A DNA stretch of 40,876 nt, taken from positions 1 to 40,876 of the forward strand of contig NZ_JAIEQY010000275.1 in NCBI RefSeq assembly GCF_019747315.1. The letters are read 5' to 3'. Position 1 is the first letter of the stretch. Each line of letters opens with the position of its first letter. This document shows positions 12,601 through 29,552 of this stretch, one piece after another. This DNA is from Roseococcus sp. Lineage in GTDB: Bacteria > Pseudomonadota > Alphaproteobacteria > Acetobacterales > Acetobacteraceae. Position numbers and translations under genes: made by a program. The notes under the pieces were generated by a model. The model searched no databases. It had not been told where the DNA came from and saw only the letters and a list, made by a program, of their open reading frames with translations.

Positions 12601-12658
12601 CGCTTGATGCTCCTGTGGGGGCAGCGCCGCAGCCTGCCCGGGTGTGTCGTCATCCTCG

Positions 12659-12679
12659 GCAGCGGGCGACGCCCGCTGC
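12659..12679 (-). other. Intercistronic hairpin 3 (pufA-pufL spacer)
   Basis: GCAGCGGGC (12659-12667) and GCCCGCTGC (12671-12679) form a perfect nine-pair stem with a three-base loop, about 60 bases before the pufL start on the transcribed minus strand. No T run follows, so it is more likely an mRNA-stability or processing element than a terminator. Confidence 0.7.
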
Positions 12680-12734
12680 GCATGCCTCGCCCACTGCCGT
12701 GGAGCGACACTCTTCGCCCGGGCTGGCGGGGGAT

Positions 12735-12787
12735 CGGATCACGCCCACTGGGGTTGCCCATGGGGCGTTCCCCTGGGGCGTGATCCG
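12735..12787 (-). other. Intercistronic hairpin 2, long two-part stem (pufA-pufL spacer)
   Basis: The arms CGGATCACGCCC (12735-12746) and GGGCGTGATCCG (12776-12787) pair perfectly over twelve bases. Inside them GGGG (12750-12753) pairs with CCCC (12770-12773), and GCCC (12756-12759) with GGGC (12763-12766) around a three-base loop. The whole folds into one long imperfect stem. It sits in the untranslated pufA-pufL spacer, where purple bacteria place a hairpin that blocks 3'-to-5' decay of the pufBA message. No T run follows. Confidence 0.8.
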
Positions 12788-12825
12788 TCTGTCCGTCGCC
12801 AGTTCGAGCTGCGAAACCCGCGAGT

Positions 12826-12841
12826 GCTTCCCGAGGGAAGC
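12826..12841 (-). other. Intercistronic hairpin 1, directly after pufA
   Basis: GCTTCC (12826-12831) and GGAAGC (12836-12841) pair around a four-base loop, beginning nine bases after the pufA stop codon on the minus strand. It is the first of three stems in the spacer and lies where a 3' end protecting the pufBA mRNA is expected. Confidence 0.65.
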
Positions 12842-12850
12842 CCTCGTGGA

Positions 12851-13030
12851 TCAGCGGCCGACCGGCTGCCCGGGGGTGAAGGTCGGCGTGGTCGCGCACC
12901 AGCCCAGATGGTCGCAGTAACGCGGCGAGCTGAGCACGGCGAAGTGAATCACCGCGGCGATGCCGACGACACCCAGGGTGCCGAGAACGCCGACGCGGAG
13001 GGGATTCACCACCATCCAAATCTTATGCAT
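12851..13030 (-). CDS. pufA: Light-harvesting 1 (core antenna) alpha polypeptide
   Basis: A 59-residue membrane peptide read directly from the minus strand between pufB and pufL. It begins MHKIWMVVNPLRVG, has one hydrophobic helix (residues about 13-34), and carries the bacteriochlorophyll-ligating AxxxH motif at A25-H29 (AAVIHFAVLSS), as expected for an LH1 alpha subunit. The C-terminal tail is polar and contains two cysteines (YCDHLGWC). The ATG at 13030 follows GAGGAG about six bases upstream. Neighbours fix the identity: pufB upstream and pufL downstream. It is smaller than common ORF-size cut-offs and is easily missed, because longer frames in the other phases cover it. Confidence 0.95.
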   Translation of the reverse strand: MHKIWMVVNPLRVGVLGTLGVVGIAAVIHFAVLSSPRYCDHLGWCATTPTFTPGQPVGR

Positions 13031-13054
13031 TGTAGTCTCCTCTCGAATGAGAAT

Positions 13055-13101
13055 GCCGGGCTGCCGATCCGGACCACCTGGTCAGGACCGGATTGCCCGG
13101 C
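13055..13101 (-). other. Hairpin in the pufB-pufA spacer
   Basis: GCCGGGC (13055-13061) pairs with GCCCGGC (13095-13101), and ATCCGG (13067-13072) with CCGGAT (13088-13093), giving two stacked perfect stems with a small asymmetric bulge and a 15-base loop. It fills most of the 77-base gap between the pufB stop and the pufA start. The gap is long compared with the 10-20 bases seen between pufB and pufA in Rhodobacter. Confidence 0.75.
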
Positions 13102-13107
13102 GGCTGA

Positions 13108-13293
13108 TCACAGGAACATCCGCCAATCGGGCGGCACGACCTGGGTCCCGTAGACGAGCGGGCGCCAGAGCCAGACCAGGATGTGCGCGCCCATCGAGGC
13201 GAACACGGAGAAGATCCAGCCCTGCATCACCAGGCGGTGAATTTCACGCGCCTCGGCTTCCGTCACACCGGACCTTGTAGTTACATCGGCCAT
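13108..13293 (-). CDS. pufB: Light-harvesting 1 (core antenna) beta polypeptide
   Basis: A 61-residue LH1 beta subunit: polar N terminus MADVTTRSGVTEAEAREIH, then a single membrane helix with the bacteriochlorophyll-ligating histidine in FASMGAHILVWLWRPL and a short periplasmic tail. A first histidine in the EAREIH segment is also typical of beta chains. The ATG at 13293 is used because a GGAGG (13306-13302) sits eight bases upstream. An in-frame TTG at 13308 overlaps that ribosome site and is rejected. No pufQ gene is present between bchZ and pufB. Confidence 0.95.
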   Translation of the reverse strand: MADVTTRSGVTEAEAREIHRLVMQGWIFSVFASMGAHILVWLWRPLVYGTQVVPPDWRMFL

Positions 13294-13310
13294 GAATTTG
13301 ACCTCCAACC

Positions 13311-13373
13311 GGCCTTGCGGCCATTACCGCGCACGTCCCGCGCGGCAAGGATGCACGTGGCGAAAACGCCACG
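13311..13373 (-). other. bchZ-pufB intergenic hairpins
   Basis: The 136-base gap between the bchZ stop and the pufB start holds three stems. CGTGGCG (13356-13362) pairs with CGCCACG (13367-13373) around a four-base loop. CCGCGC (13327-13332) pairs with GCGCGG (13340-13345). A short GGCC stem (13311-13322) has a GCAA-type tetraloop on the minus strand, just before the pufB ribosome site. They could mark an mRNA processing point or protect the 5' end of pufBA. No ORF of 20 residues or more resembling pufQ was found here. Confidence 0.55.
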
Positions 13374-13429
13374 CACGGCTGACGGCCCGGTGTTGCCAGG
13401 CAGACAGAGGGTGAGGGGGAGAGGCGCGC

Positions 13430-14869
13430 TCATGCGGGCACCTTCTCCACCGAAAGGGTTTTTGCTGCGCGCACGCGCGTGATGCGTGTCTCGCCCGCAT
13501 CGCGCGCCGCCTGCTCGACCTGCTCGCGCATGCGCTTGGCGGCCGATATGCGGATCAGGAAGGGTTCGCGCTCCACCAGCGCATCCAGCAGCGCCTGCGC
13601 ATCCTCGTCCCAGACGTCGGAGGGACGCGCCGGCGTCGCCGGGATCTTGTCCATCTCCGTCCCGAGCGGGAGGATGTGGAACAGCGCGTCGAACAGCGCG
13701 TTGCAGTATTCCTGGATGATGTAGGTCGCACCCGCGTAGCCCATATACGGCGTGCCGGTGGCGCGACGAATGATGGCACCCGGGAAGCTCGCAGGGATGT
13801 AGGCGGCGCGCGTGCCGGCTTCGGCCATGTACATGCGCTCGTTGAAGCTGCCGAAGACCACGAGGCCCGGGCTCTTCATCGCTTCGCGCGTCTTCGCATT
13901 ATCGGGCTTCTGGCCGGCGCGGCGCTCAGCGGCGTACGCACACGGAATGCCCATCTCCTCGGTGAGGAACTGCTGCAGGCCATGCGTGTAGGTGTGCGTG
14001 GCCACCACGGAATAGGGCGCGGAGGCGAAGAAATCCTGCGTCACCGAACGCCAGAGATCCCACATGGGCTTCAGCGTCGTGTGCTTCTCACGCTCGATGA
14101 AGGGCTCGGGGTCGAGACCGGTGAGCTCACCCAGCTTGCGCAGGAAATTCGTCGTGGCGAACATGCCGATCGGCGCCTGGAGATAAGGACGCTCCAGCTC
14201 CTCGCAGAGCTTGCGGCCGAATTCGCGGTACATGCAGATGTTCACATCCGCATTCGGCAGCTTGCCGATATCCTCGACATGGGAGCCCAGCGGGAAGACC
14301 AGGTTGATCTCGCAGCCGATCCCTTCGACCAGGCGTCGGATCTCGGCGAGGTCCGACGGCATGTTGAAGGTGCCGTAGATGGGGCCGAGGATGTTGACGC
14401 GCGGCTTCTCGCCTTCCTTGCGGACACGCGGCTTCATCTTGCGGCCCTTGGCGCCGAATTCGGTCCAGAGCCAGTTGATGGCGCGATCCGCCGCCTGCCA
14501 CTGATCCTCATCGATGGTGCGGCAGATGAAGCGCTGCAGGTTGGAACCCTGCGGCGTGACACCACCACCGATCATCTCGGCGATGGAGCCGGTGACGACC
14601 ACGGCCGGGAGGTCGGGGTCCTGCGTCGCGGACGCCCGGCGCATGTTGGGCTCGGTGCCGTTCTGGCTGAGGCTTTCCTCATCGAGGCCGGTGACCACGA
14701 TGGGCAGCTCATGCGGCGGCAGGCCGTCCGTGTAGTGCAGCACGGCGGTGACGGGCAGGTTCTCGCAGCCCACCGGGCCGTCAATGACGACGCGCATGCC
14801 GCGCACCGCCGAGAAGGCATAGATGGCGCCCCAGTAGCCGCCGGCGCGATCGTGATCGAGGACGAGCAT
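13430..14869 (-). CDS. bchZ: Chlorophyllide a reductase subunit Z
   Basis: BchZ is one half of the BchYZ catalytic component of chlorophyllide a oxidoreductase, a nitrogenase-like enzyme that reduces ring B to make the bacteriochlorin. The 479-residue product begins [20 protein letters not shown], has the conserved [19 protein letters not shown] cysteine region and [10 protein letters not shown], and ends with the usual Lys/Arg-rich tail. The ATG at 14869 gives the family N terminus. The open frame continues upstream to 15190 but overlaps bchY and has no similarity. Unusually, 112 non-coding bases separate bchY and bchZ, and no good Shine-Dalgarno precedes the start; a hairpin (14880-14913) lies immediately upstream. 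Confidence 0.97.
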
Positions 14870-14879
14870 GGTCAGTGGT

Positions 14880-14913
14880 CCGATCGTGGCTGCGTAGCAG
14901 CCGCGTGAATCGG
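14880..14913 (-). other. Hairpin just upstream of the bchZ start
   Basis: GGCTGC (14888-14893) and GCAGCC (14897-14902) form a perfect stem with a three-base loop, extended by CCGAT (14880-14884) pairing with ATCGG (14909-14913). It ends about ten bases before the bchZ ATG, within the 112-base bchY-bchZ spacer, so it could modulate ribosome access or mRNA stability. Confidence 0.5.
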
Positions 14914-14981
14914 CCCACCAGCAACGCAGGTGATGATGCGCGGCGCGATTGTCCGGAGATGGAGCGGATCGGATCGCATCA

Positions 14982-16481
14982 TCACGTCCCCACCGCTTCT
15001 TCGGATTTCGCCTTGGCCGCGCGCAGCTTGCGCTGGCGGTCGCGGAAGCCCGGCGGGTCCACCGGCTTCTCGCGGAAGCCGTAGCCCGCGCCATCCGGCG
15101 TGCCGACGCCTTCGAAGAAGCTGACCATGCGGCTGAAGCGCTCGCGCCCCTTGGTCTGGGCGGCGACGATGCCAGCCATGGAACCCGCACCCGCGATGGA
15201 AAACAGCGGCCGCGCGCTGACCATGTTGGTGAAGTAGAGGGCCGGGATGCCCATCTCCTTCGCCTTCTGCACCAGCGGCGTGGTACCCAGCGCCAGGTCA
15301 GGCTTGGCCTCCTTCATGGCGGCCAGATCCTGCTCGAGCGAGGCGCGGTACTGCACGTGGCAGCCCTGGGCCTTCAGCCACTCGGCGTCGGCCGCACTCC
15401 ATTCGGTGCGCGGGCAGGCGGTGCCGACATAGGGCACCTCGGCGCCGGCTTCGATCAGCAGGCGCGCCACCAGCAGCTCCGAGCCCTCATAGCCGGAGAC
15501 GGTGATGCGGGCGTTGATCGGATTGGCGGCCAGCACGCCGCGGATGGCGGGCAGCACGGCCTGGCGGGCTGCCTCCCGCTGGCTTTCGGGCACGCCGGCG
15601 GCGATGCCGATGGCCTCGATCCAGGCGGCGGTGCCTTCCACGCCGACAGGCCCCGAGCCCACGACGTTGCGGCCGGCCGCACGGAATTCACGCACGCTCG
15701 CCGTGTAGAAGGGATGCAGCGCGGCGACGGCCACCGAATCCAGCGCGGAGTAGAGGTCACGCCATTCGCGACAAGGGGCCTGGGCGCCGGCGGCGAGGCC
15801 CATCGGGGCCAGGATCTGGCCGATGCCCACGGGATCGGCCGGAAACAGCTCGCCGATCAGGCAGACATTGCGCGCTTCGTCGCTGTGGTTGCGCGGGCGC
15901 GCCACGGGGCCTTGCTCGGCCTCGTTGCGGGCATAGCGCAGCATGGCGCCGGTCAGGACGTCCTTGGCTTCCGCATGCGTCGGCACGCCGAAGCCCGGGA
16001 CATCGATGCCGATGATGCGAACCCCGTTGATCTCCTTGGGCAGGAGTTCCAGCGGCACGCCCGAGGCGGTGGGCACGCACAGATTGGTGATGATGACGGC
16101 GTCGTAGTCCTCCGGCTTCGCCGTCTCGTGCACCGCGTCGCGGATATCCTCGAACAGCTTGCCGGTGACGAGCGTCTCGGAGTTGAAGGGCACGTAGCCC
16201 ACCGTCCGCTTCGCGCCGTAGAAATGCGAGGTGAAGGTCAGCCCATAGACGCAGCAGGCGCTGCCCGAGAGGATCGTCGCCACGCGGCGCATCCGCAACC
16301 CCACGCGCAAGCTGCCGAAGGCCGGGCACATGCTTTGCGGCTGGTCATGCGGACCGCGCGGATAATCCTTCATCAGCTGGTCCATCACCTCCGTCTTGCC
16401 GGCGGCGCGGGCCGCGGCATCGAAGGTTTCCCGCCCGGCATGGCAGGGCGAACCGTCTGGCGTCGGAGGGGGGGGCGACAT
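14982..16481 (-). CDS. bchY: Chlorophyllide a reductase subunit Y
   Basis: BchY pairs with BchZ in the chlorophyllide a oxidoreductase catalytic heterotetramer. The 499-residue protein shows the cysteine ligand sites of the NifD/K-like fold: [28 protein letters not shown] and [16 protein letters not shown]. It also has the well-conserved [19 protein letters not shown] and the [12 protein letters not shown] region. The N-terminal 45 residues (proline-rich MSPPPPTP, then a helical stretch) are variable in the family. The ATG at 16481 lies six bases after the bchX stop. An overlapping out-of-frame ATG at 16485 is not used. Confidence 0.97.
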
Positions 16482-16487
16482 CCATGC

Positions 16488-17462
16488 TCAGACGCCCTCG
16501 TAGACCACTTCGAGGGAGGGCTTGTTCACGACATTGGCGCCGCACATGTCTTCCATCGTGGCCGGCAGCAGCGTCACGCCACGGCCCACCGCATCGCCCT
16601 TGAACAGGTTCAGCAGGTTTTCATGCGTCAGCGGGGTGGGGCGCAGCGGCGGGGCTTCCGCCACCTGCACGCCCAGCGCCTCGAAGAGCCCGGCCCATTG
16701 GCCGCCCGGCGTGCCGACGATCTCGTAATTCGCGCTCTTGCGGCGGATATCGTCATCGGCGGGGATGGCGGCCAGCACGGGGATGCCGACGGCGGCGGCG
16801 AAGGCCTGCGCCTCGCCCGTGCCGTCATCCTTGTTGATCACCAGGCCGGCCACGCCGACATTGCCACCCAGCTTGCGGAAGTAATCCACTGCCGAGCAGA
16901 CATTGTTCGCCACATAGAGCGACTGGAGGTCGTTCGAGCCGACGACGATGACCTTCTGGCACATGTCACGCGCGATCGGCAGGCCGAAGCCGCCGCAGAC
17001 CACGTCGCCCAGGAAGTCGAGCAGGACATAGTCGAAATCCCACTCGTGGAAGCCCAGCTTCTCCAGCAGTTCGAAGCCATGGATGATGCCGCGCCCGCCG
17101 CAGCCGCGGCCCACTTCCGGGCCGCCCAGTTCCATCGCGAAGACGCCGTCGCGCTTGAAGCAGACATCGCCGATGACGACCTGCTCGCCAGCGGCCTTCT
17201 TCTTGGACGAGGTCTCGATGATGGTGGGGCAGGAACGCCCGCCAAACAGGAGGGAGGTCGTGTCGCTCTTCGGGTCGCAGCCGATCAGCAGCACGCGCTT
17301 GCCCTGCGCCGCCATCATGTAGCTGAGATTGGCGAGGGTGAAGGATTTGCCGATGCCACCCTTGCCGTAGATCGCGATGATCTGCGTTTCCTTCTTCGCC
17401 GGAATCGCTTCCATCGAAGCGGAGTCGTCGGAGGGCTGCATATTCCCGGTCACAGCGTTCAT
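16488..17462 (-). CDS. bchX: Chlorophyllide a reductase iron protein subunit X
   Basis: BchX is the NifH-like ATPase that delivers electrons to BchYZ. The 324-residue product has the P-loop YGKGGIGKSFTLANL, the switch regions CDPKSDTTSLLF and LLDFLGDVVCGGFGLP, and the two cysteines expected to bridge the homodimer's [4Fe-4S] cluster (in GRGCGGRGI and DVVCGGFG). The first 27 residues are polar and variable. The ATG at 17462 overlaps the bchC stop (ATGA); a longer frame to 17633 lies over bchC and is not used. Confidence 0.97.
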   Translation of the reverse strand: MNAVTGNMQPSDDSASMEAIPAKKETQIIAIYGKGGIGKSFTLANLSYMMAAQGKRVLLIGCDPKSDTTSLLFGGRSCPTIIETSSKKKAAGEQVVIGDVCFKRDGVFAMELGGPEVGRGCGGRGIIHGFELLEKLGFHEWDFDYVLLDFLGDVVCGGFGLPIARDMCQKVIVVGSNDLQSLYVANNVCSAVDYFRKLGGNVGVAGLVINKDDGTGEAQAFAAAVGIPVLAAIPADDDIRRKSANYEIVGTPGGQWAGLFEALGVQVAEAPPLRPTPLTHENLLNLFKGDAVGRGVTLLPATMEDMCGANVVNKPSLEVVYEGV

Positions 17463-18388
17463 CCTTGTTGTCTCCAATCGAGAACCATTTTCAGGCAGCG
17501 CGCATCGCCGAAGGCGGTGCGGTAGGCATCGGGCGCATCGGTCGCGTGCTGGCGATGCGTGATGAGATGATCGAGCGAGAGCTTGCCCTCGGTGATCAGC
17601 GCATTCAGCGCGGCCATGTCCTGCGCCTGCCATTCGGCGGCGATCCGCATGGTCACTTCGCGCATGAAGGCGGGGGCGAAGGCGAAGGAGAGGCGGTCAT
17701 AGAAGCCGGCGAGCGTGATCTCGCCCCCCGAGCGCAGCCGGCCGACGAGCTGGTCGAGGATGTTGGAATCGCCGCTCGCGTCGCAGATGCGCAGGTAGTC
17801 GCGGCGCGGGTCATTCTCGGGGGTGAGGACGCTGTAGCCCTCGGCACCCTCGGCGCGCTCGGCGCTCAATTCCCAGACGGTGGGGGCGGGATGGCCCATG
17901 GCGATGGTGATGCGGGCCAGCAGCCGGCCCAGCACGCCATGGCCGACGATCAGCTCGGGCGGATGGTCCACGATGGCGTGGTAGGCGGTGGCGGCCAGCG
18001 CCAGGAGGATCGCGGTGTCACCCAGCGACTCGTCCACCGGGATGACCCGCGCGCCCGGCGTGACCAAGCGGCCGGCGGCACCGCCGAAGAGGCCGCGCAC
18101 ATCGCGGAACCCGCGGGAGCCGGGGATGAAGACGCGGTTGCCGACGACCTGGCCCGAGGCGGGGCCGGCCTGGACAACGCGGCCGACACTCTCATAGCCG
18201 GGGACCAGCGGATAACCCATGCCGGGGAAATTCGGCATGCGGCCCAGCCAAAGCAGCTTCTCGGTGCCCGTGCTGATGCCCGACCACTCCACATTGACCA
18301 CCACGTCGGCCTCGCCCGGAGGGAGAAGGTCCACGCGCTGGAGCATAAGGTGCTCCGGCTGGGTCATGAGAACTGCGATGGTGTCCAC
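17459..18388 (-). CDS. bchC: Bacteriochlorophyllide a dehydrogenase (3-hydroxyethyl to 3-acetyl)
   Basis: BchC oxidises the C3 hydroxyethyl group of the bacteriochlorophyllide intermediate to acetyl with NAD+. The 309-residue protein is of the medium-chain dehydrogenase type and matches BchC over its length: SGISTGTEKLLWLGRMPNFPGMGYPLVPGYESVG near the N terminus, the dinucleotide-binding loop VGHGVLGRLLARI, and the C-terminal HRQHATDAPDAYRTAF. It starts with GTG at 18388, preceded by GGGAGG about eleven bases upstream, and no better ATG lies nearby in frame. A promoter with a PpsR box lies between it and crtF. Confidence 0.95.
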   Translation of the reverse strand: MDTIAVLMTQPEHLMLQRVDLLPPGEADVVVNVEWSGISTGTEKLLWLGRMPNFPGMGYPLVPGYESVGRVVQAGPASGQVVGNRVFIPGSRGFRDVRGLFGGAAGRLVTPGARVIPVDESLGDTAILLALAATAYHAIVDHPPELIVGHGVLGRLLARITIAMGHPAPTVWELSAERAEGAEGYSVLTPENDPRRDYLRICDASGDSNILDQLVGRLRSGGEITLAGFYDRLSFAFAPAFMREVTMRIAAEWQAQDMAALNALITEGKLSLDHLITHRQHATDAPDAYRTAFGDARCLKMVLDWRQQG

Positions 18389-18423
18389 CGGTTTAGAAGC
18401 CTCCCTCGATTGGCTGATGTGTC

Positions 18424-18451
18424 AATCTAGAAGGACGAACACAAGTGTCAA
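18424..18451 (-). promoter_or_regulatory. Candidate bchC promoter (-35/-10)
   Basis: Minus-strand TTGACA (18451-18446) is followed after 16 bases by TAGATT (18429-18424), a fair sigma-70 pair (6/6 and 4/6 matches) about 36 bases before the bchC GTG. The -35 is inside the PpsR box, so repressor binding would block polymerase. In other purple bacteria bchC also has its own promoter within the crtEF-bchC-puf superoperon. Confidence 0.55.
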
Positions 18452-18463
18452 GCAAAATGGACA
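18446..18463. promoter_or_regulatory. PpsR/CrtJ operator upstream of bchC
   Basis: TGTCAAGCAAAATGGACA is a perfect TGT-N12-ACA box in the 102-base gap between crtF and bchC. It overlaps a good -35 hexamer. PpsR/CrtJ represses bch and crt promoters under aerobic or bright conditions in related bacteria; an additional TGT and ACA pair nearby (18418-18443) has non-standard spacing. Confidence 0.75.
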
Positions 18464-18490
18464 TTAACCAAGCGCGACCGAAAACACGCG

Positions 18491-19618
18491 TCATGCGATC
18501 GCGACCAGAACACGCGTGAGCAGGGGCGTTGCGGTCGGCAGCAGGCGGGGCTGACGGAATCCAGCCTCTTCCAGCATGGCAGAGAGCCTGGCTGGGCTGC
18601 GCGGGCGGCCCGTGCCCATGGCGCGCAGGTAGAAGCCGAAATAGGCGGCGCCCATGGCTTCCGCGCCCCGAGTCTCGGCCATGGGTTCGGCCACCAGCAG
18701 CGTGCCGCCGGCGGGCAGGGCGGCATGGGCCGCGCGCAGCATGCGGGCCACATCGGCCTCGTCATGATCATGCAGGACGCGCACGAAGCTGATGATGTCG
18801 GCGCCCTGGGGCAGGATGCCGGAGTGGAAATCCCCGCCGACGGCCCTGGCGCGGGTGGCAAGGCCAGCCGCCGCGAATCGCTGCTCAGCCCGGGCGGCCA
18901 CGGCCGGAAGGTCGAAGAGGATGACGTTCAGCGCCGGATTCGCGGCTGCCACGGCGCGCAGGAAGGAGCCATCGCCACCGCCCACATCCAGCAGGCAGCG
19001 ATGCTTGGAGAAATCATAGGTATCAATGACTTCACCCGAAATCATCGGCTGGGACGCCGCCATCAGCGCCGTGTAGGCCGCGATTTGCGCATCGCCCAGC
19101 GACTCCGGCTTCTCGACGCCGGCATAGGGCCAATAGGCGGCGAGCTGCCCGCCGCCGCGCTCGCCCCGCAGCAGCGCCACGGGGTCGGTCAAGTCGGCGT
19201 AGAGCATCGCATGGTGCTTCACCATGGATTCGATGGCGGCATTGCCCACCATCACGGCGCCCAGCTGCCCCAGCGCCCAGCGGCCATTGCGGCGCTTGGT
19301 CAGGCCGAGCGACTCGGCGGCTTCCAGCAATTGGGCGGCGGCATCGGCCGGCAGGCCAAGGCGATGCGCCAGCGCACGCTCCTCCTGCGGGCCTTCGGCC
19401 AGGATGGTGAAGAGGTCGAGCTTCACGCAGGCGTAGAGGACCTGCGAATAGACGAAGCCGGCCGCCAGGTCGAAGAGCGTGCGGGCGCGCCTGCGCGCCA
19501 TGCCGCGCGTCAGCGGGAAGCGGCCGGCCCAGCGGCGGAAATCCGCGCTGGCCACCAGCCGGTCATGCCAGGCGGCGAGGCGGTCCCGCCAATTCAGGGG
19601 AGAGGTCAGGGCCACCAT
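18491..19618 (-). CDS. crtF: Demethylspheroidene/hydroxycarotenoid O-methyltransferase
   Basis: CrtF uses S-adenosylmethionine to methylate the tertiary hydroxyl introduced by CrtC, a late step in the spheroidene/spirilloxanthin pathway. The 375-residue protein has an N-terminal dimerisation/winged-helix region (LDLFTILAEGPQEERALAHRLGL), a Rossmann SAM site LLDVGGGDGSFL near residue 210, the acidic FDLPAV loop, and the VLHDHDEADVARML motif expected for this methyltransferase family. The ATG at 19618 is two bases from the crtE stop, with no clear ribosome site, so coupled translation is likely. bchC follows after a 102-base promoter-bearing gap. Confidence 0.93.
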   Translation of the reverse strand: MVALTSPLNWRDRLAAWHDRLVASADFRRWAGRFPLTRGMARRRARTLFDLAAGFVYSQVLYACVKLDLFTILAEGPQEERALAHRLGLPADAAAQLLEAAESLGLTKRRNGRWALGQLGAVMVGNAAIESMVKHHAMLYADLTDPVALLRGERGGGQLAAYWPYAGVEKPESLGDAQIAAYTALMAASQPMISGEVIDTYDFSKHRCLLDVGGGDGSFLRAVAAANPALNVILFDLPAVAARAEQRFAAAGLATRARAVGGDFHSGILPQGADIISFVRVLHDHDEADVARMLRAAHAALPAGGTLLVAEPMAETRGAEAMGAAYFGFYLRAMGTGRPRSPARLSAMLEEAGFRQPRLLPTATPLLTRVLVAIA

Positions 19619-19620
19619 TC

Positions 19621-20487
19621 TCAGTAGGCGTGCGCGGGCAGGGTCTTGGGCACCAGGCGCCGCGCCTCATGCCGCATCAGCGCTCCCAATTCGGCGCGGC
19701 CGCGGCAGGGGGGGATCGCCTCCACCGCCAGATCCGCCAATTCTTCCAGGCGCTTGACGGCACCCTTCAGGCCGAGTTCCCGCACGGCGCTCGGCCGGTC
19801 ATGCGCGGCATCCTGGCCGACCGGCTTGCCCAGTTGCTCGGCGTCGGAAATGGCATCGCCGATGTCGTCGGCCACCTGATAGGCCTCGCCCAGCCGCATG
19901 CCGACATGGCTCCAGGCCTCGACCGGCCCGCCGGCGGCAGCCGCACCCGCCATGGTGGCGCCGGCAAAGAGAGCGGCCGTCTTGGCGCGGTGATAGGCAG
20001 CCACATCCACCCGCGTCTCGCATTCCCAGGCCTGGCCAGCGACGATGCCGAGCGGCGTGCCGACCGAATCGCCCACGATCCGCATGACGGCGCCCAGCCG
20101 CTCCGGATGGGTGCAACTGGCCGAAGCCCGCGCGATGGTCTGGAAGGCGAGGACGATCAGCGCATCGCCGGCCAGCAGCGCCAGCGGCTCGCTGAAGGCG
20201 CGATGGACCGTCAGCCGCCCGCGCCGCGTCGCCGCGTCGTCGAAGCAGGGCATGTCGTCATGCACGAGGGAAGCGCAGTGCAGCATCTCAATGGCGGCGG
20301 CGGTGGCGTCCACCAGCACGGGGTCATCCATGCCGCAGGCGGCGGCGGCGGCGAGGCAAAGCCTGGGGCGCACGCGCGCCCCGCCCGGGAACACCGCATG
20401 ATGCATGGCGAGCGACAGCAGGGGCGGCGTGGCCCCGGGCGTCAGCGCCTCGGTCAATTGCCGTTCGATGCGGCGGTTCGCGTCCAT
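19621..20487 (-). CDS. crtE: Geranylgeranyl diphosphate synthase
   Basis: CrtE extends farnesyl diphosphate to geranylgeranyl diphosphate for carotenoids and the bacteriochlorophyll phytyl/geranylgeranyl tail. The 288-residue product carries the first aspartate-rich motif DDMPCFDD, the FQTIAR and GQAWECET regions, and the second motif DDIGD in AYQVADDIGDAI. The ATG at 20487 gives the usual N terminus; AGGGAG sits about nine bases upstream. It is first in the minus-strand superoperon and divergent from crtC, with a PpsR box between them. Confidence 0.95.
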   Translation of the reverse strand: MDANRRIERQLTEALTPGATPPLLSLAMHHAVFPGGARVRPRLCLAAAAACGMDDPVLVDATAAAIEMLHCASLVHDDMPCFDDAATRRGRLTVHRAFSEPLALLAGDALIVLAFQTIARASASCTHPERLGAVMRIVGDSVGTPLGIVAGQAWECETRVDVAAYHRAKTAALFAGATMAGAAAAGGPVEAWSHVGMRLGEAYQVADDIGDAISDAEQLGKPVGQDAAHDRPSAVRELGLKGAVKRLEELADLAVEAIPPCRGRAELGALMRHEARRLVPKTLPAHAY

Positions 20488-20534
20488 GGAGGTGCTCCCT
20501 TCGAAGGCGGAAGGATGGCACCGTCGCGATTGAC

Positions 20535-20552
20535 TGTCACGTTTAATTGACA
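20535..20552. promoter_or_regulatory. PpsR/CrtJ operator between crtE and crtC
   Basis: TGTCACGTTTAATTGACA is a perfect TGT-N12-ACA palindrome-type box in the 134-base divergent crtE/crtC gap. It is 48 bases from the crtE start and about 70 from crtC, so one repressor could control both directions. Confidence 0.75.
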
Positions 20553-20579
20553 GCATTCTTCGGGGCAGTGGAAAAAAAC

Positions 20580-20597
20580 TGTCAATCTTCCCTGACC
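20580..20597. promoter_or_regulatory. Degenerate second PpsR-like box
   Basis: TGTCAATCTTCCCTGACC matches TGT-N12-ACA except for the last base (ACC). It is 27 bases after the perfect box, closer to crtC. PpsR often binds paired boxes, so it may be a weak second site; on its own it is not convincing. Confidence 0.35.
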
Positions 20598-20621
20598 AAC
20601 CAGGTCGGCGATGCAGGAGAG

Positions 20622-21578
20622 ATGCCCTTGCCCTTCGACCAGGCCGAGCCGGGCCTTGGCCCCGGCTTCCATCACACCCCGCCCAAGGATGGCTATGCCT
20701 GGTGGTACCTCGACGCGCTGAGCGAGGACCAGCAGCATGGGCTGACCATCATCGTCTTTCTCGGCTCGGTCTTCTCGCCCTATTACGCGATCGCGCGGCG
20801 GCAGGGCCCGGCCGACCCCATGAACCATTGCTGCATCAATGTGGCGCTCTATGGCCGCCCCGCGCGCTTTGCCATGACCGACCGGCCAGCCCGCGCGCTG
20901 AAGCGCGACGCGACCAGCATCACCATCGGCCCTTCGGCCATGCGCTGGGATGGCAAGGTCCTCACGCTCGACCTCGATGAGGTCGCGGTGCCCCTGCCGC
21001 GCCGCATCCGCGGGAAGGTGCGCCTGACGCCGGGGCCGATGAATGAGCGCGTCTTCACGCTGGACGCCGCCGGCCATCACCATTGGCGCCCCATGAGTGC
21101 CGCCGCGCATGTGGAAGTGGAGCTGGAGCAGCCCGGCCTCTCCTGGCAGGGGCATGGCTATTTCGACAGCAACTGGGGCTCATCCCCGCTGGAGCGGGAC
21201 TTCCAGGAATGGGATTGGTGCCGCGTGCCGCTGAAGGAGGGTGCGGCCATCCTTTATGATGCGCGCCGCCGCGACGGCACGCGCCAGCAGCTCGCCCTCC
21301 GCTTCCACGCGGATGGCCGCATCGAGGAAATGCCCGTGCCGCCCGACGTCACCATGCGCCGCTCCCTCTGGGGCATCCGCCGCGCGACACAGAGCGAGGG
21401 CCAGGCACGCATCGTGAAGACACTGCTCGACACGCCCTTCTATGCCCGCTCCGTGCTGGAGACGACCCTCTGCGGCGAAACGGCGATGGGCGTGCATGAG
21501 AGCCTGGATTGCGACCGATTCGCCGCGCTGCCGATCCAGCTCATCCTGCCGTTTCGGGTTCCGCGCCGATGGTTCTAG
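20622..21578 (+). CDS. crtC: Carotenoid 1,2-hydratase (hydroxyneurosporene synthase)
   Basis: CrtC adds water across the C1-C2 double bond of acyclic carotenoids such as neurosporene and lycopene. The 318-residue protein has the family's N-terminal DGYAWWYLDALSED and GSVFSPYYA motifs, PMNHCCINVALYG, the central GHGYFDSNWGSSPLE..F..WDWCR block with its conserved aspartates and tryptophans, and no signal peptide. The ATG at 20622 has AGGAG only two bases away, a short spacing; upstream in-frame starts are non-ATG and lie in the operator region. It is divergent from crtE; crtD and crtI, which often adjoin it, are absent here. Confidence 0.93.
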   Translation: MPLPFDQAEPGLGPGFHHTPPKDGYAWWYLDALSEDQQHGLTIIVFLGSVFSPYYAIARRQGPADPMNHCCINVALYGRPARFAMTDRPARALKRDATSITIGPSAMRWDGKVLTLDLDEVAVPLPRRIRGKVRLTPGPMNERVFTLDAAGHHHWRPMSAAAHVEVELEQPGLSWQGHGYFDSNWGSSPLERDFQEWDWCRVPLKEGAAILYDARRRDGTRQQLALRFHADGRIEEMPVPPDVTMRRSLWGIRRATQSEGQARIVKTLLDTPFYARSVLETTLCGETAMGVHESLDCDRFAALPIQLILPFRVPRRWF

Positions 21579-23714: not shown

Positions 23715-25895
23715 CTATTCGCGCAGCACCACCACGTCACCGGGGGTGAGGCCCGTGCGAATTTCCACCCCCTCGGGCGTGGAGATGCCCAGCGTCACGG
23801 GGCGGGAGACGACGCGCCCGCCCTCGCGCACGCGCACCACGCGCGTGCCGCCCTCATCGCGCACCGCGTGGGGCGGCATGACCACTGCATCCTCGCGCTC
23901 ATGCGTGATGATGGCGAGGCTGGCCGACATGCCGACGGCGAGGCGCGCCCGCTGCTCGGGCGTCAGGTCGGTGATCGCGACGCTGACCGCGAAATTGGGC
24001 ATGCCGCGCCCCATGCCGCCCTGGTCCGCGCTGGCCTGCGCGGCCACCGAGGCGACGCGCCCGGTCAGCACATCGCCCCCGAACGCATCACCCGTGACCG
24101 TGACGTTCTGCCCGGGGCGCACCTGGTTCACGTCGATCTCATCCACCTGGCCGCGCACCAGGAAGCCCGCGAGGTCACCGATGCCGAACATGGTCTGCCC
24201 GCGCGAGACGCGGGAGCCGACCTCGATGGTTTCGCTGCGGCCCGAACCGCCCTGGCGGTCGGGCGGCAGCAGCACCACGCCGGAGACGGGGGCGCGCACC
24301 TCGGCATTGGTCAGGTCATTCTCGATCTCGCGCAGCCGCGTCTCGGCATTGGCGAGCTCCAGCTCGGCCGTGCGCAGGTGCAATTCGCTGCCGCGCTCCA
24401 GCGTGGCCGCGAGGTCCTGCTGCGCGGCCTGGAACTGCAGTTCCTGGTTGCGCTGCTGCTGGATGAGGTTGCGATGCTCCTCGGCCGGGATGATGCCGCG
24501 GCTGAGCAGCATCTGGCTTTGCTGCAGGCGGGCGCGAAGATTGGCGGTCTCCATCTCTGCCGCCGCCAATTGCCGCCGCGCGCGGGCGACTTCGAAGCCG
24601 GTGGTCCAGCCGCGCAGCTCCTCGACACGCTGGCGGGCGCGGATTTCGGCGGCGCGGGCCTCGCGCAGGCGCGTCTCCACCTCGCCGCGATCCATGCGCA
24701 GCAGCACATCGCCCTGGTTCACGGCGCCGCCATAGCGGAACAGCCGCTCGCGCACCGTGCCGTCATAGGGGGCGACGACGCTGACATTGGCGCCGGGCTC
24801 CAGCACCCCCACCACGGCGATGCGCGCGCTGACGGGCTGCGCGGTGGCCGTGATGGTGACCGTGCCGCCGGAACCGCCGCCGGCGAAATCCTGCGGCTCG
24901 GCGGGTGAGAACCAGGTCCAGGCGGCGACGCCGAAGACGCCCAGGAAGGCCGCCGCCACCGCCGCGACGCGCAGCGCCGCGATGCGCCGCGCGACGAGCG
25001 CCGAGCGCGTGGCCGAGGTTTCGAGCTTCAGGAAGGCGTCCTGCAACTGCGTGTATTGCGAGGCGAGCTCTGCCTGGAGGCGCTCGGTCTCGGTCACATC
25101 GGCGAAGACGGCGGTGATGGCCGGCCGCCCGGCGAAGGGCCCGGTCTGCACCCGCCAGGAGGTGGCCTCGACCGAGAGGCGCCGCTCGCCGGGGAAATCC
25201 AGCACGCGGCGGCCTTGCGTCGCCTCCTCCTCCTGGAGCGGGGCGAGGACGGCGTCGATGAAGTCATCCGTGCCGTCGCGCTCGCTCAGCAGCAGGGCGA
25301 GGCTCTGGCCGATCGCCTCCTCGGCATCGATGCCCAGCATGCGGGCGGCGGCGGGGTTCACCGTCATCACGCGCGCATCGGGGCCGATGGCCAGCACGCC
25401 ATCGGTCATCACACCCAGCGCGCTGCGGTAATCGAGGGCGAGGCTCTCCTTCACCCCGGCCAGCGCCGCCTCGCGCGCGGCCAGGCGCAGCTCGGCCCCC
25501 GCGCGGGCGGCGAGGCGCTCCAGGCCCTGGCGCTGCGCCTCGCTCAAGCGGCGGGGAAGGCGGTCCATCACGCCGATTCGGCCCAGCACGGCGCCACCCG
25601 TGGCCTGGATCGGCGCGGCCGCATGGAAGCGCAGCCCCTCGGCGCCGGTGACCAGCGGGTGGGCGGCGAAGCGCGGATCCTGCGAGACATCCTCGATCTC
25701 GGCGAGGGCGTCGCCGGCCGGGATCTCCGCGCAGAAGGCCTCCAGCGCGGCGCCCGCCGGCGTGGCGCCGGCGATGCGCAGCCGCGTCCCGTCGGAGAGC
25801 GCGACATAGGCCAGGGGCGCCCCGCAAAGCAGCGCCGCCAGATGGGCGATATCGTCAAACCCGTTGGCCGCGGACGCGGCCGGCGCATCAGTCAT
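23715..25895 (-). CDS. GAF-PAS-TM-HlyD/MacA fusion: sensory efflux adaptor
   Basis: A 726-residue protein that joins two normally separate modules. Residues about 10-140 look like a GAF domain (AEIEDVSQDPRFAAHPLV, LGRIGVMDRLPRRLSEAQ). Residues about 155-270 are a PAS domain (MTDGVLAIGPDARVMTVNPAAARMLG; ITAVFADVTETERLQ). A coiled coil (about 268-300) and one membrane helix (about 308-328) follow. Residues 345-726 are a complete periplasmic adaptor: a split lipoyl-like half (VSVVAPYDGTVRERLFRYGGAVNQGDVLLRM... and AEVRAPVSGVV), a long alpha-hairpin (405-528), a beta barrel (RGQVDEIDVNQVRPGQNV) and a membrane-proximal domain. The sensory part would be cytoplasmic. It overlaps the TolC-type gene by eight bases; ABC genes lie upstream. 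Confidence 0.88.
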   Translation of the reverse strand: MTDAPAASAANGFDDIAHLAALLCGAPLAYVALSDGTRLRIAGATPAGAALEAFCAEIPAGDALAEIEDVSQDPRFAAHPLVTGAEGLRFHAAAPIQATGGAVLGRIGVMDRLPRRLSEAQRQGLERLAARAGAELRLAAREAALAGVKESLALDYRSALGVMTDGVLAIGPDARVMTVNPAAARMLGIDAEEAIGQSLALLLSERDGTDDFIDAVLAPLQEEEATQGRRVLDFPGERRLSVEATSWRVQTGPFAGRPAITAVFADVTETERLQAELASQYTQLQDAFLKLETSATRSALVARRIAALRVAAVAAAFLGVFGVAAWTWFSPAEPQDFAGGGSGGTVTITATAQPVSARIAVVGVLEPGANVSVVAPYDGTVRERLFRYGGAVNQGDVLLRMDRGEVETRLREARAAEIRARQRVEELRGWTTGFEVARARRQLAAAEMETANLRARLQQSQMLLSRGIIPAEEHRNLIQQQRNQELQFQAAQQDLAATLERGSELHLRTAELELANAETRLREIENDLTNAEVRAPVSGVVLLPPDRQGGSGRSETIEVGSRVSRGQTMFGIGDLAGFLVRGQVDEIDVNQVRPGQNVTVTGDAFGGDVLTGRVASVAAQASADQGGMGRGMPNFAVSVAITDLTPEQRARLAVGMSASLAIITHEREDAVVMPPHAVRDEGGTRVVRVREGGRVVSRPVTLGISTPEGVEIRTGLTPGDVVVLRE

Positions 25896-27384
25896 TCAGG
25901 GAAATCCGCCAGGTGTCGAGGGTGGTGCCGAGCACCTGGTCCAGCTGCGTCAGCGAATTGGCATAGGCGATGACGGCCTGGAGCTCCGCGCTCTCGGCCG
26001 CTTGCAGCGAGCCCTGGAAGGAGACGACCTGGAAGTTCGAGGAGCGCCCGGCCTGGAGCTTCACCAGCTCCGCCTCCAGCTGCAACCCGGCCAATTCGCG
26101 GGCGCGGCGGGCGAGCTCCGCCTGGCGGCGCAGCGTGTCGATGTTGCGCGTCACATCCTCCACCGCCTGGCGCAGCCGGTCGCGCGCCTGCTCGATGGCC
26201 AGCTCGGATTGGCGGAGCGCGATGGTGGCATTCACCTCCGGCTGCTCGCGCGCGATCTGGCCGAGGGGGATGTTGAATTGCAGGCCGACATTGAAGTCGT
26301 TGCGCACCTCGGCCAGGGCGCCCAGCGTGCGGGCGAGGTCGGCGCGCTGCGCGGCCAGCCCGGTGCCGGCGACCAGCGAGACATCCCAAAGCCGCTGGTT
26401 GCGCGCGACATCGAGGTTGATGCGGTTCACCTCCACCGCCAGCAGCGTGCGCAGGTAGTCCGGCTGGTTGGCCGCGGCGGTGGCCAGGGCGCGCGCGGGG
26501 TCCACCCGGGCGGATTCGGCGGCTGGCCGCTCCACCGCCCAGATCTTCTGGTCCTGGTTCACGGCCAGCAGGGTGAGCAGCCCGAGCCGCGCCGCCTCAT
26601 GCTGGTTGCGGGCGCCAAGCAGGGACAGCTCCTGCTGCGCGATGCTCGTCTCGGCCTGGATGAGCTCCACCTGCGCCAGGCGGCCGGCGGCGAAGAGCGC
26701 CTGGTTCACGCTGGCCAGTTCACGCGCCCGGCGCACGGCTTCGACCGAGATTCGCAGCTGCTCCTGCGCCTGGAGCAAGGTGCGGTAGCCGGTGATGGTC
26801 TGGGTGATCTGGTCCGCCACCAGGGAGCGCAGCTGGAGCTTGCTGTTCTCCTCCTGGATGCGGGCGATGCGGATGGGGGCCATGGCGAAATCCACGCCGC
26901 CGCCGGCCAGCAAAGGCTGGATCACCTGGAAGGTGGCGCGCCCCTGGCCGCTCGGATTGGCGCCGCGCACATTGCTCTGCACGCCGAGCCAGCCGAACTG
27001 GAATTGCGCGCCCGTGGGCGCCGCGATGTTCACCACCGGCCCGAGCGTCGCCTGCGTCAGGTTGGCGCCATTGGTGCGGGAACGGGTGATGCCGCCGGTC
27101 ACGCCGAAGCGCGGATCAAAGGTCGCCTCCGCCACGCGCAGGGAAAATCGGTCCGACACGCGTTGCAGATACTGGCTGCGGATGGCGCGGTTGCTGCGCA
27201 GCGCCAGGAAGACGGATTCCGGCAGGGTCAGCGGGATGCTGCCCTCGGGCATATGGGCCGTGGGCATGGCGGTATTGGCCCGCGCGGGCGGCCGCTCGCG
27301 CGCGGGGGCGGATTGCGCCAAGGCGGCGCCGTGGCTGGCCGCCAGGGCGAGCATCGCGCCGAAGATCGCCTTGCCTCCCGTCAT
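25888..27384 (-). CDS. TolC-family outer-membrane efflux protein
   Basis: A 498-residue outer-membrane factor. A signal peptide (residues about 1-24, ending ASHGAALAQ) is followed by a TolC-type repeat: two halves rich in long Ala/Gln/Arg helices (for example LRQAVEDVTRNIDTLRRQAELARRARELA, ESAELQAVIAYANSLTQLDQVLGTT) with short beta segments (NDFNVGLQFNIPLG). It would form the trimeric channel through the outer membrane for the adjacent adaptor and MacB-like pump. The ATG at 27384 was chosen because it begins the signal peptide and follows GGAG; an earlier start at 27414 adds ten polar residues. It is followed by the adaptor gene with an eight-base overlap. Confidence 0.87.
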   Translation of the reverse strand: MTGGKAIFGAMLALAASHGAALAQSAPARERPPARANTAMPTAHMPEGSIPLTLPESVFLALRSNRAIRSQYLQRVSDRFSLRVAEATFDPRFGVTGGITRSRTNGANLTQATLGPVVNIAAPTGAQFQFGWLGVQSNVRGANPSGQGRATFQVIQPLLAGGGVDFAMAPIRIARIQEENSKLQLRSLVADQITQTITGYRTLLQAQEQLRISVEAVRRARELASVNQALFAAGRLAQVELIQAETSIAQQELSLLGARNQHEAARLGLLTLLAVNQDQKIWAVERPAAESARVDPARALATAAANQPDYLRTLLAVEVNRINLDVARNQRLWDVSLVAGTGLAAQRADLARTLGALAEVRNDFNVGLQFNIPLGQIAREQPEVNATIALRQSELAIEQARDRLRQAVEDVTRNIDTLRRQAELARRARELAGLQLEAELVKLQAGRSSNFQVVSFQGSLQAAESAELQAVIAYANSLTQLDQVLGTTLDTWRISLND

Positions 27385-27515
27385 CCTGCCCTGCTCCGAT
27401 TGCGTTTCGTGCAAACTATCTCACTGCGCGGGGCAGAACTGCAATAGAACCTCCCGATCATGCGGATCAGCCCCGCCCTCTCGACCGCGCGCGCGGCTTG
27501 GTGTCTGCTCCCGCC

Positions 27516-27743
27516 ATGACGCGTGGTGCCCTGCTGATCCTTGCCCTTGCGGCCGCGGCCTGCGCGCCGCCGGCCACGCTGCGCCAGCCCGTGATCGGCG
27601 CCAGCTATGTGCCGGTGGTGGCGGAATTCCCGCCCTTGCCCGCCATCATGGAACGCACCGGCGCGCCGCCCATCGCGCTGCCAGAGCCCAGCAGCTTCAC
27701 TCCGATCGCAGCGCCTCGATCGGGTCCAGCCGGGCGGCCATGA
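27516..27743 (+). CDS. Possible small lipoprotein
   Basis: A 75-residue frame on the + strand in the 312-base gap between the permease and the TolC-type gene. Its N terminus (MTRGALLILALAAAACAPP) reads as a lipoprotein signal with the cysteine at residue 16. The remainder is proline-rich and unlike any family recognised. Its last 47 bases overlap the oppositely oriented end of the permease gene, and there is no clear ribosome site, so it may be a fortuitous frame in GC-rich DNA. Confidence 0.3.
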   Translation: MTRGALLILALAAAACAPPATLRQPVIGASYVPVVAEFPPLPAIMERTGAPPIALPEPSSFTPIAAPRSGPAGRP

Positions 27744-28869
27744 CGGCCGGGTAGAAGCCGAAGAAGACGCCGACCGCGAGCGAGACGCCCGCCCCCAGCG
27801 GCGCCGCCATGGGCGAGAAATGCACGGGCCACCCGGACATCCAGGCAAAGCCCACGCCGCCCGCATAGCCGAGCGCCACGCCCAGCGCCGCCCCCAGCAG
27901 CGAGAGGATCAGCGCCTCGCTGAGAAACAGCCGGCGCACATCGCGCCGCCGCGCGCCGATGGCGAGCCGGATGCCGATCTCCCGCCGCCGCTCGTTCACC
28001 GACATCAGCATGATGTTCATGACGCCGACGCCGCCCAGCACCAGCGCGATGCTCCCCACCGCGCCCAGCAGCAGCGCCACCAGCCGCACCTGGTTGTTCA
28101 TGCCCGCGATGAGCTGCCGGGCGGAGAGCACGTTCAGCGTGGAATCGCGCAGGCCCGGTCCCAGATGCTGCTGCAATTGCTGGGTGGCCACTTCCGGGTC
28201 CGCATCGCCGCGCAGCCGCGCCACCGCCATGGACAGGGCGGGCGCGGACATCACCCGCCGCGCATTGGCGAGCGAGAGGAACAGCGTGCCGTTCACATCC
28301 ATGGGCAGCATGGGGTTCATCATCACCGGCTCGATCACGCCGATCACGGTGAAGATGTAGCGGCTGACCCGGATCTGCGAGCCGACGCGGATGGGCGAGA
28401 AGGGGGTGGAGAGCTGCTCGGCCAGCTCGGAACCCAGCACGGCATGCAGTTCGAAGCGGTCATGCGGCGAGAGGAAGCGGCCCTGGGCCATGGGCAGCCG
28501 CGCCACATCGGCGAAGCTGCCGGTGGCGCCAAGGAAGCCCGCATTGCGCGTCTGCCCCTCATAGGCGATGGGGCCGCCGCCGATCATGAAGGGCGCGATC
28601 TCACCTACGGTCGGCACCATCTGGGGCACGGTCTCGATGTCGCCCAGCCGGAAATTGCCGAGGCCCTGCGGGCTGTCGGCGCGCAGGATCAGGGTGTCCG
28701 TGCCCATCTGGCGGAACTGCCGGATGGTCTCCTGCCGGGCCATGGTGCCGGCATGCAGCATGGCGATGACGGCGCCCGCGCCGACGACGATGCCGATGAG
28801 GGCGAGCAGGCTGCGCTGCCAGGCGGCGAGGAGGTTGCCCGCGGCCTCCATCAGGGTCTGGCGGATCAT
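27697..28869 (-). CDS. MacB-type ABC transporter permease
   Basis: A 390-residue permease of the MacB/LolC/FtsX class: one N-terminal membrane helix (LLALIGIVVGAGAVIAML), a large periplasmic domain (about 45-260), then three C-terminal helices around LVALLLGAVGSIALVLGGVGVMNIML, ALILSLLGAALGVALGYAGG and the final FFGFYPAVMAARLDP. The hallmark VNERRREIGIRLAIGARRRDV loop is present. Unlike MacB proper, the ATPase is a separate protein. Start and upstream ATPase stop overlap (ATGA). It presumably drives export of an unknown substrate through the TolC-type channel via the GAF-PAS-HlyD adaptor. Confidence 0.9.
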   Translation of the reverse strand: MIRQTLMEAAGNLLAAWQRSLLALIGIVVGAGAVIAMLHAGTMARQETIRQFRQMGTDTLILRADSPQGLGNFRLGDIETVPQMVPTVGEIAPFMIGGGPIAYEGQTRNAGFLGATGSFADVARLPMAQGRFLSPHDRFELHAVLGSELAEQLSTPFSPIRVGSQIRVSRYIFTVIGVIEPVMMNPMLPMDVNGTLFLSLANARRVMSAPALSMAVARLRGDADPEVATQQLQQHLGPGLRDSTLNVLSARQLIAGMNNQVRLVALLLGAVGSIALVLGGVGVMNIMLMSVNERRREIGIRLAIGARRRDVRRLFLSEALILSLLGAALGVALGYAGGVGFAWMSGWPVHFSPMAAPLGAGVSLAVGVFFGFYPAVMAARLDPIEALRSE

Positions 28870-29552
28870 GCGTGCTCCAACGCCACCTGGTCGGCCAGGC
28901 GGCCCTGGGTGAGCATGAGCCGACGCCGGCAGCGTGCGGCGACGCCGGGGTCATGCGTGATGATCAGCACCAGCACGCCCAGCTCGCGGTTGATGGTCTC
29001 GAAGAGGCCCATGATTTCGCGGCTCACCAGCGGGTCCAGCGCGCCGGTCGGCTCATCGGCCAGCAGGATGGCGGGGTCCCCCACCAAAGCGCGGGCGATG
29101 GCGACGCGCTGCTTCTGCCCGCCCGAGAGCATGCTGGGCATGTGCGTGAGGTGCTGGCCAAGGCCCACCTTGTCCAGCATCGCCTCGGCCCGCCTGCGCG
29201 CCTCGCCCTCCGGCGTGCCTCGATACATCAGCGGCAGGGCGACGTTCCGCCAGGCATTGAGGCGCGGCATCAGGAAGAATTGCTGGAAGACGAAGCCGAT
29301 CATCTTGTTGCGCATGGCCGATTGCGCATCGGCCTGGGCGGCCAGCACATTCTCGCCCCGGATGCGGTAGCTGCCGGAGCTGGGGCGGTCCAGCAGCCCC
29401 ACGATGTTCATGAAGGTGGTCTTGCCCGAGCCGGAGCCGCCCATCAGCGAAACCAGCTCGCCCCCCGCGAGGTCGAGGTCGATGCCGTGCAGCACCGTGC
29501 GCTCGGTGGGGCCGATCTTGAATTTCCGGGTGATGCCGCGCAGCTCAAGCAT
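28866..29552 (-). CDS. ABC transporter ATP-binding protein (MacB/LolD-type)
   Basis: A 228-residue ATPase with Walker A GGSGSGKTT (residues 38-46), a Q-loop (VFQQFFLMPRLNAW), the ABC signature LSGGQKQR (142-149), Walker B ILLADE (162-167) and the switch histidine in IITHD. It is of the MacB/LolD subfamily (TVLHGIDLDLAGGE, IVGLLDRPSSG). It energises the adjacent permease. The ATG is 30 bases downstream of the lpxB stop on the same strand, so read-through from the lpxB unit is possible. Confidence 0.93.
   Translation of the reverse strand: MLELRGITRKFKIGPTERTVLHGIDLDLAGGELVSLMGGSGSGKTTFMNIVGLLDRPSSGSYRIRGENVLAAQADAQSAMRNKMIGFVFQQFFLMPRLNAWRNVALPLMYRGTPEGEARRRAEAMLDKVGLGQHLTHMPSMLSGGQKQRVAIARALVGDPAILLADEPTGALDPLVSREIMGLFETINRELGVLVLIITHDPGVAARCRRRLMLTQGRLADQVALEHA

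Follow-up and report, generated by a model that had tools for sequence, protein, structure and literature searches.

Can a cell set the output of an envelope-spanning efflux pump from the cytoplasm, through the pump's own adaptor? This question is raised by a 40,876-nucleotide stretch of DNA from Roseococcus sp. (contig NZ_JAIEQY010000275.1, referred to as the window), in which a periplasmic adaptor gene begins with what the first-pass annotation took to be an intact GAF domain and a PAS domain that might sense a small ligand, redox state or light-linked cofactor. Most discussion of how tripartite pumps are regulated concerns transcription. The adaptor, its parts and the neighbouring genes are located as follows.

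23715..25895, minus strand: adaptor gene, 726 amino acids, ATG start, single open frame (GAF-like domain, PAS domain, coiled coil, membrane helix, HlyD/MacA-type periplasmic adaptor)
25491..25841, minus strand: GAF-like domain, residues 19-135, marginally short of the Pfam cut-off, with relaxed selection
25080..25433, minus strand: PAS domain, residues 155-272, with a D-V-T-E motif as its C-terminal end
24990..25079, minus strand: PAS-to-membrane helix, residues 273-302 (coiled coil by eye, helix in the model)
24912..24989, minus strand: single membrane helix with a basic N-side, approximately residues 303-328, by eye (model weak after residue 310)
23718..24848, minus strand: periplasmic adaptor part, approximately residues 350-726 (Pfam, NCBIfam, phmmer, AlphaFold2, Foldseek)
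25888..27384, minus strand: TolC-type outer membrane channel (OEP; Pfam), the ATG at 27384 being preferred over the TTG at 27414
27516..27743, plus strand: candidate lipoprotein ORF of 75 amino acids between the permease and TolC genes; it shares sequence, on the opposite strand, with the 3' end of the permease gene
27697..28869, minus strand: MacB/FtsX-type permease (MacB_PCD and FtsX; Pfam, NCBIfam)
28866..29552, minus strand: MacB/LolD-type ABC ATPase, a separate gene (Pfam, NCBIfam)

The adaptor ATG and the stop codon of the TolC gene upstream of it overlap. From the N- to the C-terminus, the protein consists of a GAF-like domain, a PAS domain, a coiled coil, one membrane helix and a complete HlyD/MacA-type adaptor. 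Pfam searches of the 726 residues returned HlyD_3 with 57.1 bits (cut-off 22.2) and HlyD_D23 with 49.6 bits (cut-off 30), and NCBIfam returned RND_mfp (TIGR01730) with 109.1 bits (curated cut-off 94.9), which assigns the protein to the periplasmic adaptor/membrane fusion protein family. The PAS domain reached 39.1 bits (cut-off 22.6). With the open frame, these scores and the structural models, the proposed in-frame fusion of a GAF/PAS-type module to an efflux adaptor was borne out.

The AlphaFold2 model of the full chain, based on 14 aligned sequences, had a mean pLDDT of 74.7 and a pTM of 0.29, a value at which the relative placement of the domains is not fixed by the model. It showed the adaptor fold and a single helix (268-317) that leads from PAS into the membrane segment, with confidence dropping after residue ~310. 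Residues 1-300 were modeled separately with a pLDDT of 86.7 and a pTM of 0.60, with the GAF-like fold at ~10-111, the PAS fold at 166-266 and a helix (119-162) between them. Searching both models with Foldseek agreed with the domain searches: the N-terminus matched GAF/PAS sensors including WalK, FixL, PpsR (FixL and PpsR for the PAS fold) and the diguanylate cyclase Dcsbis, and the top matches of the full chain were the adaptors of TMexCD1, MacAB-TolC (5nik, 9qgy) and AcrA, the MexA type being among these first-ranked adaptors as well. E-values went down to 9e-16 (5nik), yet TM-scores stayed near 0.2 of the query, the domains being loosely placed in the model.

The best solved relative by sequence is MacA (4dk0; phmmer 1e-9), and the MacA of MacAB-TolC (PDB 5nik, 9qgy, 4dk0, 3fpp) resembles the window adaptor in sequence and fold. 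Unlike MacA, the window adaptor has ~300 extra N-terminal residues with the PAS and GAF-like domains instead of a short N-terminal anchor, and it scored 30.6 bits against the MacA equivalog NF008606, far below the cut-off of 342. The hairpin tip (residues 459-470, approximately 24486-24521, minus strand) was aligned by eye with R-x3-L-x6-S, the motif by which adaptors grip TolC: L463 is kept, and a Q and a P stand at the places of the R and the S. A co-adapted TolC is possible.

A MacB-type permease/ATPase and a TolC partner are common to MacAB-TolC and the window pump. Pfam searches of the six neighbouring ORFs identified OEP, MacB_PCD/FtsX, ABC_tran, a methyltransferase and LpxB, with one ORF lacking a match. 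The expectation that the neighbours complete the pump held for the ATPase, the permease and the TolC-type channel; ATPase and permease are two genes, not one MacB-type protein, and the single-chain MacB family assignment did not apply. ATPase, permease and TolC channel also lie beside the adaptor in 18 of 21 further PAS-bearing loci (each genome counted once, L103 and L104 included), in several gene orders; the other three (L023, L028, L043) reach contig ends. The best reading of this arrangement is a putative four-gene ABC tripartite exporter of ATPase, permease, adaptor and TolC. Darobactin-type (DarD) and DevBCA exporters likewise have a separate MacB-like ATPase gene, and the window ATPase scored below both NCBIfam cut-offs (DarD, 184.5 bits with cut-off 375; DevA, 183.1 bits with cut-off 295.8). 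We know of no sensor domain in DarD-type or DevBCA exporters.

The cassettes and their surroundings showed several further features. The candidate lipoprotein ORF (27516-27743) encodes a lipobox followed by APPATLRQPV. A clear counterpart is present in six of eight other Roseococcus-like or Sabulicella gaps (L016, L018, L019, L021, L022, L024; not L017, L020), weaker ones occur in L025, L042, L103 and L104, and dN/dS outside the overlap was 0.15-0.73 (15 pairs). PDB entry 9qgy mentions in its title MacAB-TolC with a bound lipoprotein (YbjP); a tie of the candidate ORF to the pump is a lead only. The cassette of Rubritepida flocculans (L026 2536-2964 and 3052-3513, plus strand) encodes a pair of small, similar proteins that begin with Sec-type sequences and contain several cysteines, which may possibly be cargo or partner; no conserved cargo candidate was found among the pump neighbours of the loci listed. 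Among these loci, LpxB lies next to the pump in L016-L022 and L024 and next to the G011 remnant; plasmid cassettes have other neighbours. The window also carries photosynthesis genes (11776-21578), with pufL, bchZ, bchY, bchX and bchC above and crtF-, crtE- and crtC-like genes (methyltransferase, prenyl synthase, carotenoid hydratase) below the cut-off. Near the pump, such genes were found in some Roseococcus-like loci only: L017, L019 and L020 have several crt/bch genes there, L016 has crtC alone and L023 a piece of crtE. None was found in the examined stretches of L021, L022, Sabulicella, Humitalea, R. flocculans, Rhodovarius and Pseudolabrys. A link of the pump to photosynthesis genes was considered and dropped.

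The two N-terminal domains differ in their conservation. Between the window and its five nearest relatives (L002-L006), dN/dS was 0.05-0.17 for the PAS domain and 0.13-0.14 for the adaptor part, compared to 0.47-0.85 for the GAF-like domain. In three pairs among L006-L009, the values were 0.14-0.43 (PAS), 0.16-0.26 (adaptor) and 0.16-0.33 (GAF). Against the more distant L007, L009, L010, L012 and L014, where silent sites are partly saturated, PAS (0.29-0.68) was at or above the adaptor (0.19-0.44), and GAF reached 0.43-0.98. As dN/dS was a simple count at high GC, the argument relies on the contrast among close pairs only; among these close relatives, the PAS domain is under purifying selection, judged by substitution counts.

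The GAF-like domain scored 28.2 bits for GAF_2, just below the cut-off of 28.6, and the relatives L003 and L005 also remained below (20.5 and 18.9 bits, cut-off 22.4), in contrast to L006, L009, L010, L012 and L014, which scored above. A segment with two cysteines, kept in L006-L010, L012 and L014 (and thus in the L006-L009 pairs above), is wholly or partly missing in the window and L002-L005. Pfam found PAS and no GAF in Sabulicella (L011), Rubritepida flocculans (L013), Rhodovarius (L042), Pseudolabrys (L045), G217 (L068), G100 (L069), G323 (L070) and G553 (L103); the N-terminus of L100 appears GAF-like by eye, in a region where Pfam made no GAF call. By these comparisons, the GAF domain is optional across the fusion family and decaying in the close relatives of the window. 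Of the supposed intact GAF domain, the GAF-like fold of the model stood, and the intactness was an overstatement, given the score, the shortened segment and the relaxed dN/dS. Similarly, the PAS half of the GAF-PAS pair was upheld as conserved and under purifying selection, while the pair as such was not, GAF being absent in several genera; on this evidence, the conserved sensor-type module is the PAS domain.

No His, Cys or Trp was found among the invariant or 90% columns of the PAS alignment. A light (LOV) or His-bound haem cofactor is unsupported in the PAS domain, which has neither a conserved photo-active Cys nor a ligand His, and the light-linked cofactor suggested for the GAF-PAS module found no support. 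A metabolite or redox-linked ligand stays conceivable.

In the connection between the PAS domain and the membrane, a length rule was observed. From the D-x-T-E end of PAS to the basic pair at the membrane, 33 residues were counted in 13 of 27 proteins and 40 in 14, exactly one coiled-coil heptad apart. The definition of the basic pair was set visually, and K-K was later allowed so as to include G1005. An initial count covered 23 proteins; the four added afterwards, three from the genus of G217 (G965-G967) and one from another family (G1005), also gave 40. The flanking segments vary, with nine lengths of the PAS interior (26 of 27 measured) and eight of the membrane-to-barrel linker (24 of 27), and the 33/40 length changes twice on the adaptor tree (24 proteins). 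Read most simply, selection acts on the register of the helix that leads from PAS into the membrane, which would be expected if PAS packing passes to the adaptor. Together with the selection on PAS among close relatives, the heptad-stepped helix backs the earlier idea of sensor-adaptor coupling. The fixed register supports coupling, not ligand sensing, and an equally fixed register would be expected of a coiled coil with a structural role alone.

A constitutive platform has to be weighed here, in which PAS (and GAF) would serve dimerisation or assembly and help to pack the adaptors round the permease, with no sensing involved. The register suits such a structural coil, the PAS domain has no conserved cofactor residue, and GAF is gained or lost often (five changes on the tree, some labels assigned by eye). 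A plain coiled coil would suffice for packing, yet close relatives show PAS and adaptor under similar constraint, and in G758 a GAF domain takes the position of PAS within a cassette of this kind. We consider the platform unlikely, though it is the strongest of the competing explanations. In G758, GAF reached 47.5 bits (cut-off 22.4) ahead of a distant adaptor in a comparable four-gene cassette type; this domain was given little weight, as the whole fusion was found in one of 48 genomes of its class.

The fusion recurs in Roseococcus, Rubritepida, Sabulicella, Humitalea, Rhodovarius, further Acetobacteraceae and Rhodospirillales genomes and one Pseudolabrys genome, and also in four further families of the alphaproteobacterial class (G217, G100, G323, G1005). 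A scan of named genomes with two short peptide patterns gave at least 17 loci, 15 of them in the family of the window, with L046 and L047 matching only in parts. Among 59 relatives searched besides the own genome, a fused adaptor was present in 12 of 20 from the same genus and 2 of 15 other family genomes, and at that match level in none of 24 further genomes of the class. Wider samples gave matches in 18 of 299 genomes of the order (13 across the PAS part, own genome included), 5 of 337 of the class (own included, all across PAS), 4 of 43 of the order of G217 (all one genus, all across PAS) and 23 of 398 of the phylum (across PAS only the own genome). Among plasmids, 26 records matched the Pseudolabrys protein, none over 80% of its length. 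These counts are lower bounds, since only a handful of candidates was scored in each genome and the scan of named genomes relied on the two short patterns. So far as sampled, the fusion appears rare and alphaproteobacterial.

Since the identical architecture recurs in other genomes, named isolates included, a frameshift, chimera or other assembly error is argued against. A passive fusion or gene-calling artefact would fit the decaying GAF in the window lineage and the related cassettes that have no sensor; its presence in named isolates and in the four further families, and the purifying selection on PAS among close relatives, speak against it. For the PAS domain, this explanation is answered by its conservation, and overall we regard it as barely credible; the GAF domain of the window, unlike PAS, is possibly a passive leftover.

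Sensor-less related adaptors occur in comparable cassettes: L101 (by Pfam), L108, L110 and L111 (by length and translation) and plasmid cassettes. Four-gene cassettes of Deefgea, Pantoea and Enterobacter plasmids and of G466, G770 and G886 combine ATPase, permease, TolC and a related adaptor of ~415-436 residues that starts close to the membrane helix; in those of the three plasmids, the genes overlap (L129 4545-9185, L130 4500-9137, L131 4512-9197). Because related adaptors in the same cassette type have no sensor, the sensor is an add-on, and because some cassettes keep the pump without it, it is dispensable for the pump as such. Three changes in the presence of PAS and five in that of GAF are required on the tree built from the adaptor part; this tree has long branches (G847, G758, G872), and GAF was assigned by eye in G562 and G378, where Pfam gave none. 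The three changes would fit one gain of PAS with losses as well as several gains. In the Deefgea and Pantoea plasmids, a hypothetical gene precedes the cassette. Remnants with pieces of ATPase and adaptor only were found in G011 and G575 (L029 7951-8543, L030 123-491, L105 6101-6702), and from these the pump seems to have been lost in some lineages.

We favor, with a probability of roughly 0.52, an ABC-type tripartite exporter in which a PAS sensor on the cytoplasmic side of the adaptor tunes export, without transcription. The N-terminus of the adaptor is predicted to lie in the cytoplasm because basic residues precede the membrane helix and an N-terminal signal is absent (both judged by eye). 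PAS, in some lineages with GAF, would thus be positioned at the membrane beside the pump ATPase, and the coiled coil of fixed register would tie it to the membrane helix of the adaptor. An intracellular signal, be it a small ligand, a metabolite or the redox state, would alter PAS packing, this change would travel along the helix across the membrane, and the adaptor would then assemble with, or stimulate, permease and ATPase differently. MacA forms a ring of six on the MacB dimer and stimulates the MacB ATPase. By analogy, six PAS domains may surround the ATPases, and a change in their packing could shift adaptor assembly or ATPase stimulation. In this mechanism, sensing by the N-terminus, ligand binding, the signal direction and an output in pump activity are presumed.

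Two variants assign the PAS domain another task. It might sense cargo or a precursor and serve as a loading gate, switching the pump on only with cargo present. Its predicted position beside the ATPase and the two small proteins with Sec-type starts within the R. flocculans cassette would suit a gate, but the permease-TolC gap of the window (~310 bases) leaves no room for such genes, and we consider this variant improbable. PAS domains often act as relays, and the same helix could carry a signal in either direction, so the adaptor, by way of PAS and a partner protein, might inform the cytoplasm of the state of pump or periplasm. As no kinase, cyclase or other output domain is present in the adaptor or the six neighbours scanned, such a reverse signal is still less probable than the gate.

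Beyond the direct tuning of export by PAS, a broader and more tentative idea, which we hold possible but doubtful, is that the adaptor N-terminus accepts, in the manner of a socket, exchangeable sensors on the cytoplasmic side (PAS, GAF-PAS, GAF or none), with the heptad-stepped helix relaying the sensor state through the membrane and directly gating an envelope-spanning tripartite pump without transcription. In the literature searched, we found no description of such transcription-free efflux control for an ABC-type pump.

The statement that no characterised example of the fusion was known stood for PAS: none with HlyD, membrane fusion protein, TolC or MacA was found in the literature searched, mostly titles and abstracts, with few subscription journals. 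It did not stand for sensor-fused adaptors in general. The alginate co-polymerase Alg44 is reported to combine a cytoplasmic sensor domain, a membrane region and a periplasmic adaptor-like domain, the sensor being required for alginate synthesis (PMC3815931). Its sensor differs, being a c-di-GMP-binding PilZ domain that acts for a polysaccharide synthase; the eight Pfam families listed for the window adaptor (E up to 0.1) do not include PilZ. For GAF proteins that carry HlyD/biotin_lipoyl domains and are encoded in SecA_DEAD/peptidase M50 loci, e.g., in Methylobacterium extorquens, a regulatory and sensory role has been proposed, and no homologue of an ABC transporter was found there by the authors (PMC4452313). 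Like the window protein, they unite sensor and HlyD domains in one chain, and the accessible text does not mention PAS for them (PMC4452313). Neither SecA_DEAD nor peptidase M50 was found among the six ORFs scanned near the window adaptor. This comparison suggests that, with sensor-fused adaptors already known, PAS on the adaptor of an ABC-type pump is an apparently new variation.

With a conserved sensor borne by the adaptor, export could be adjusted immediately; inside-to-outside signalling through a single membrane helix would become experimentally tractable by simple deletions and heptad insertions, and a handle on the control of MacB-type ATPases by their adaptors would be gained. Related adaptors with PAS, GAF-PAS, GAF or no sensor form a natural series that is ready for comparison.
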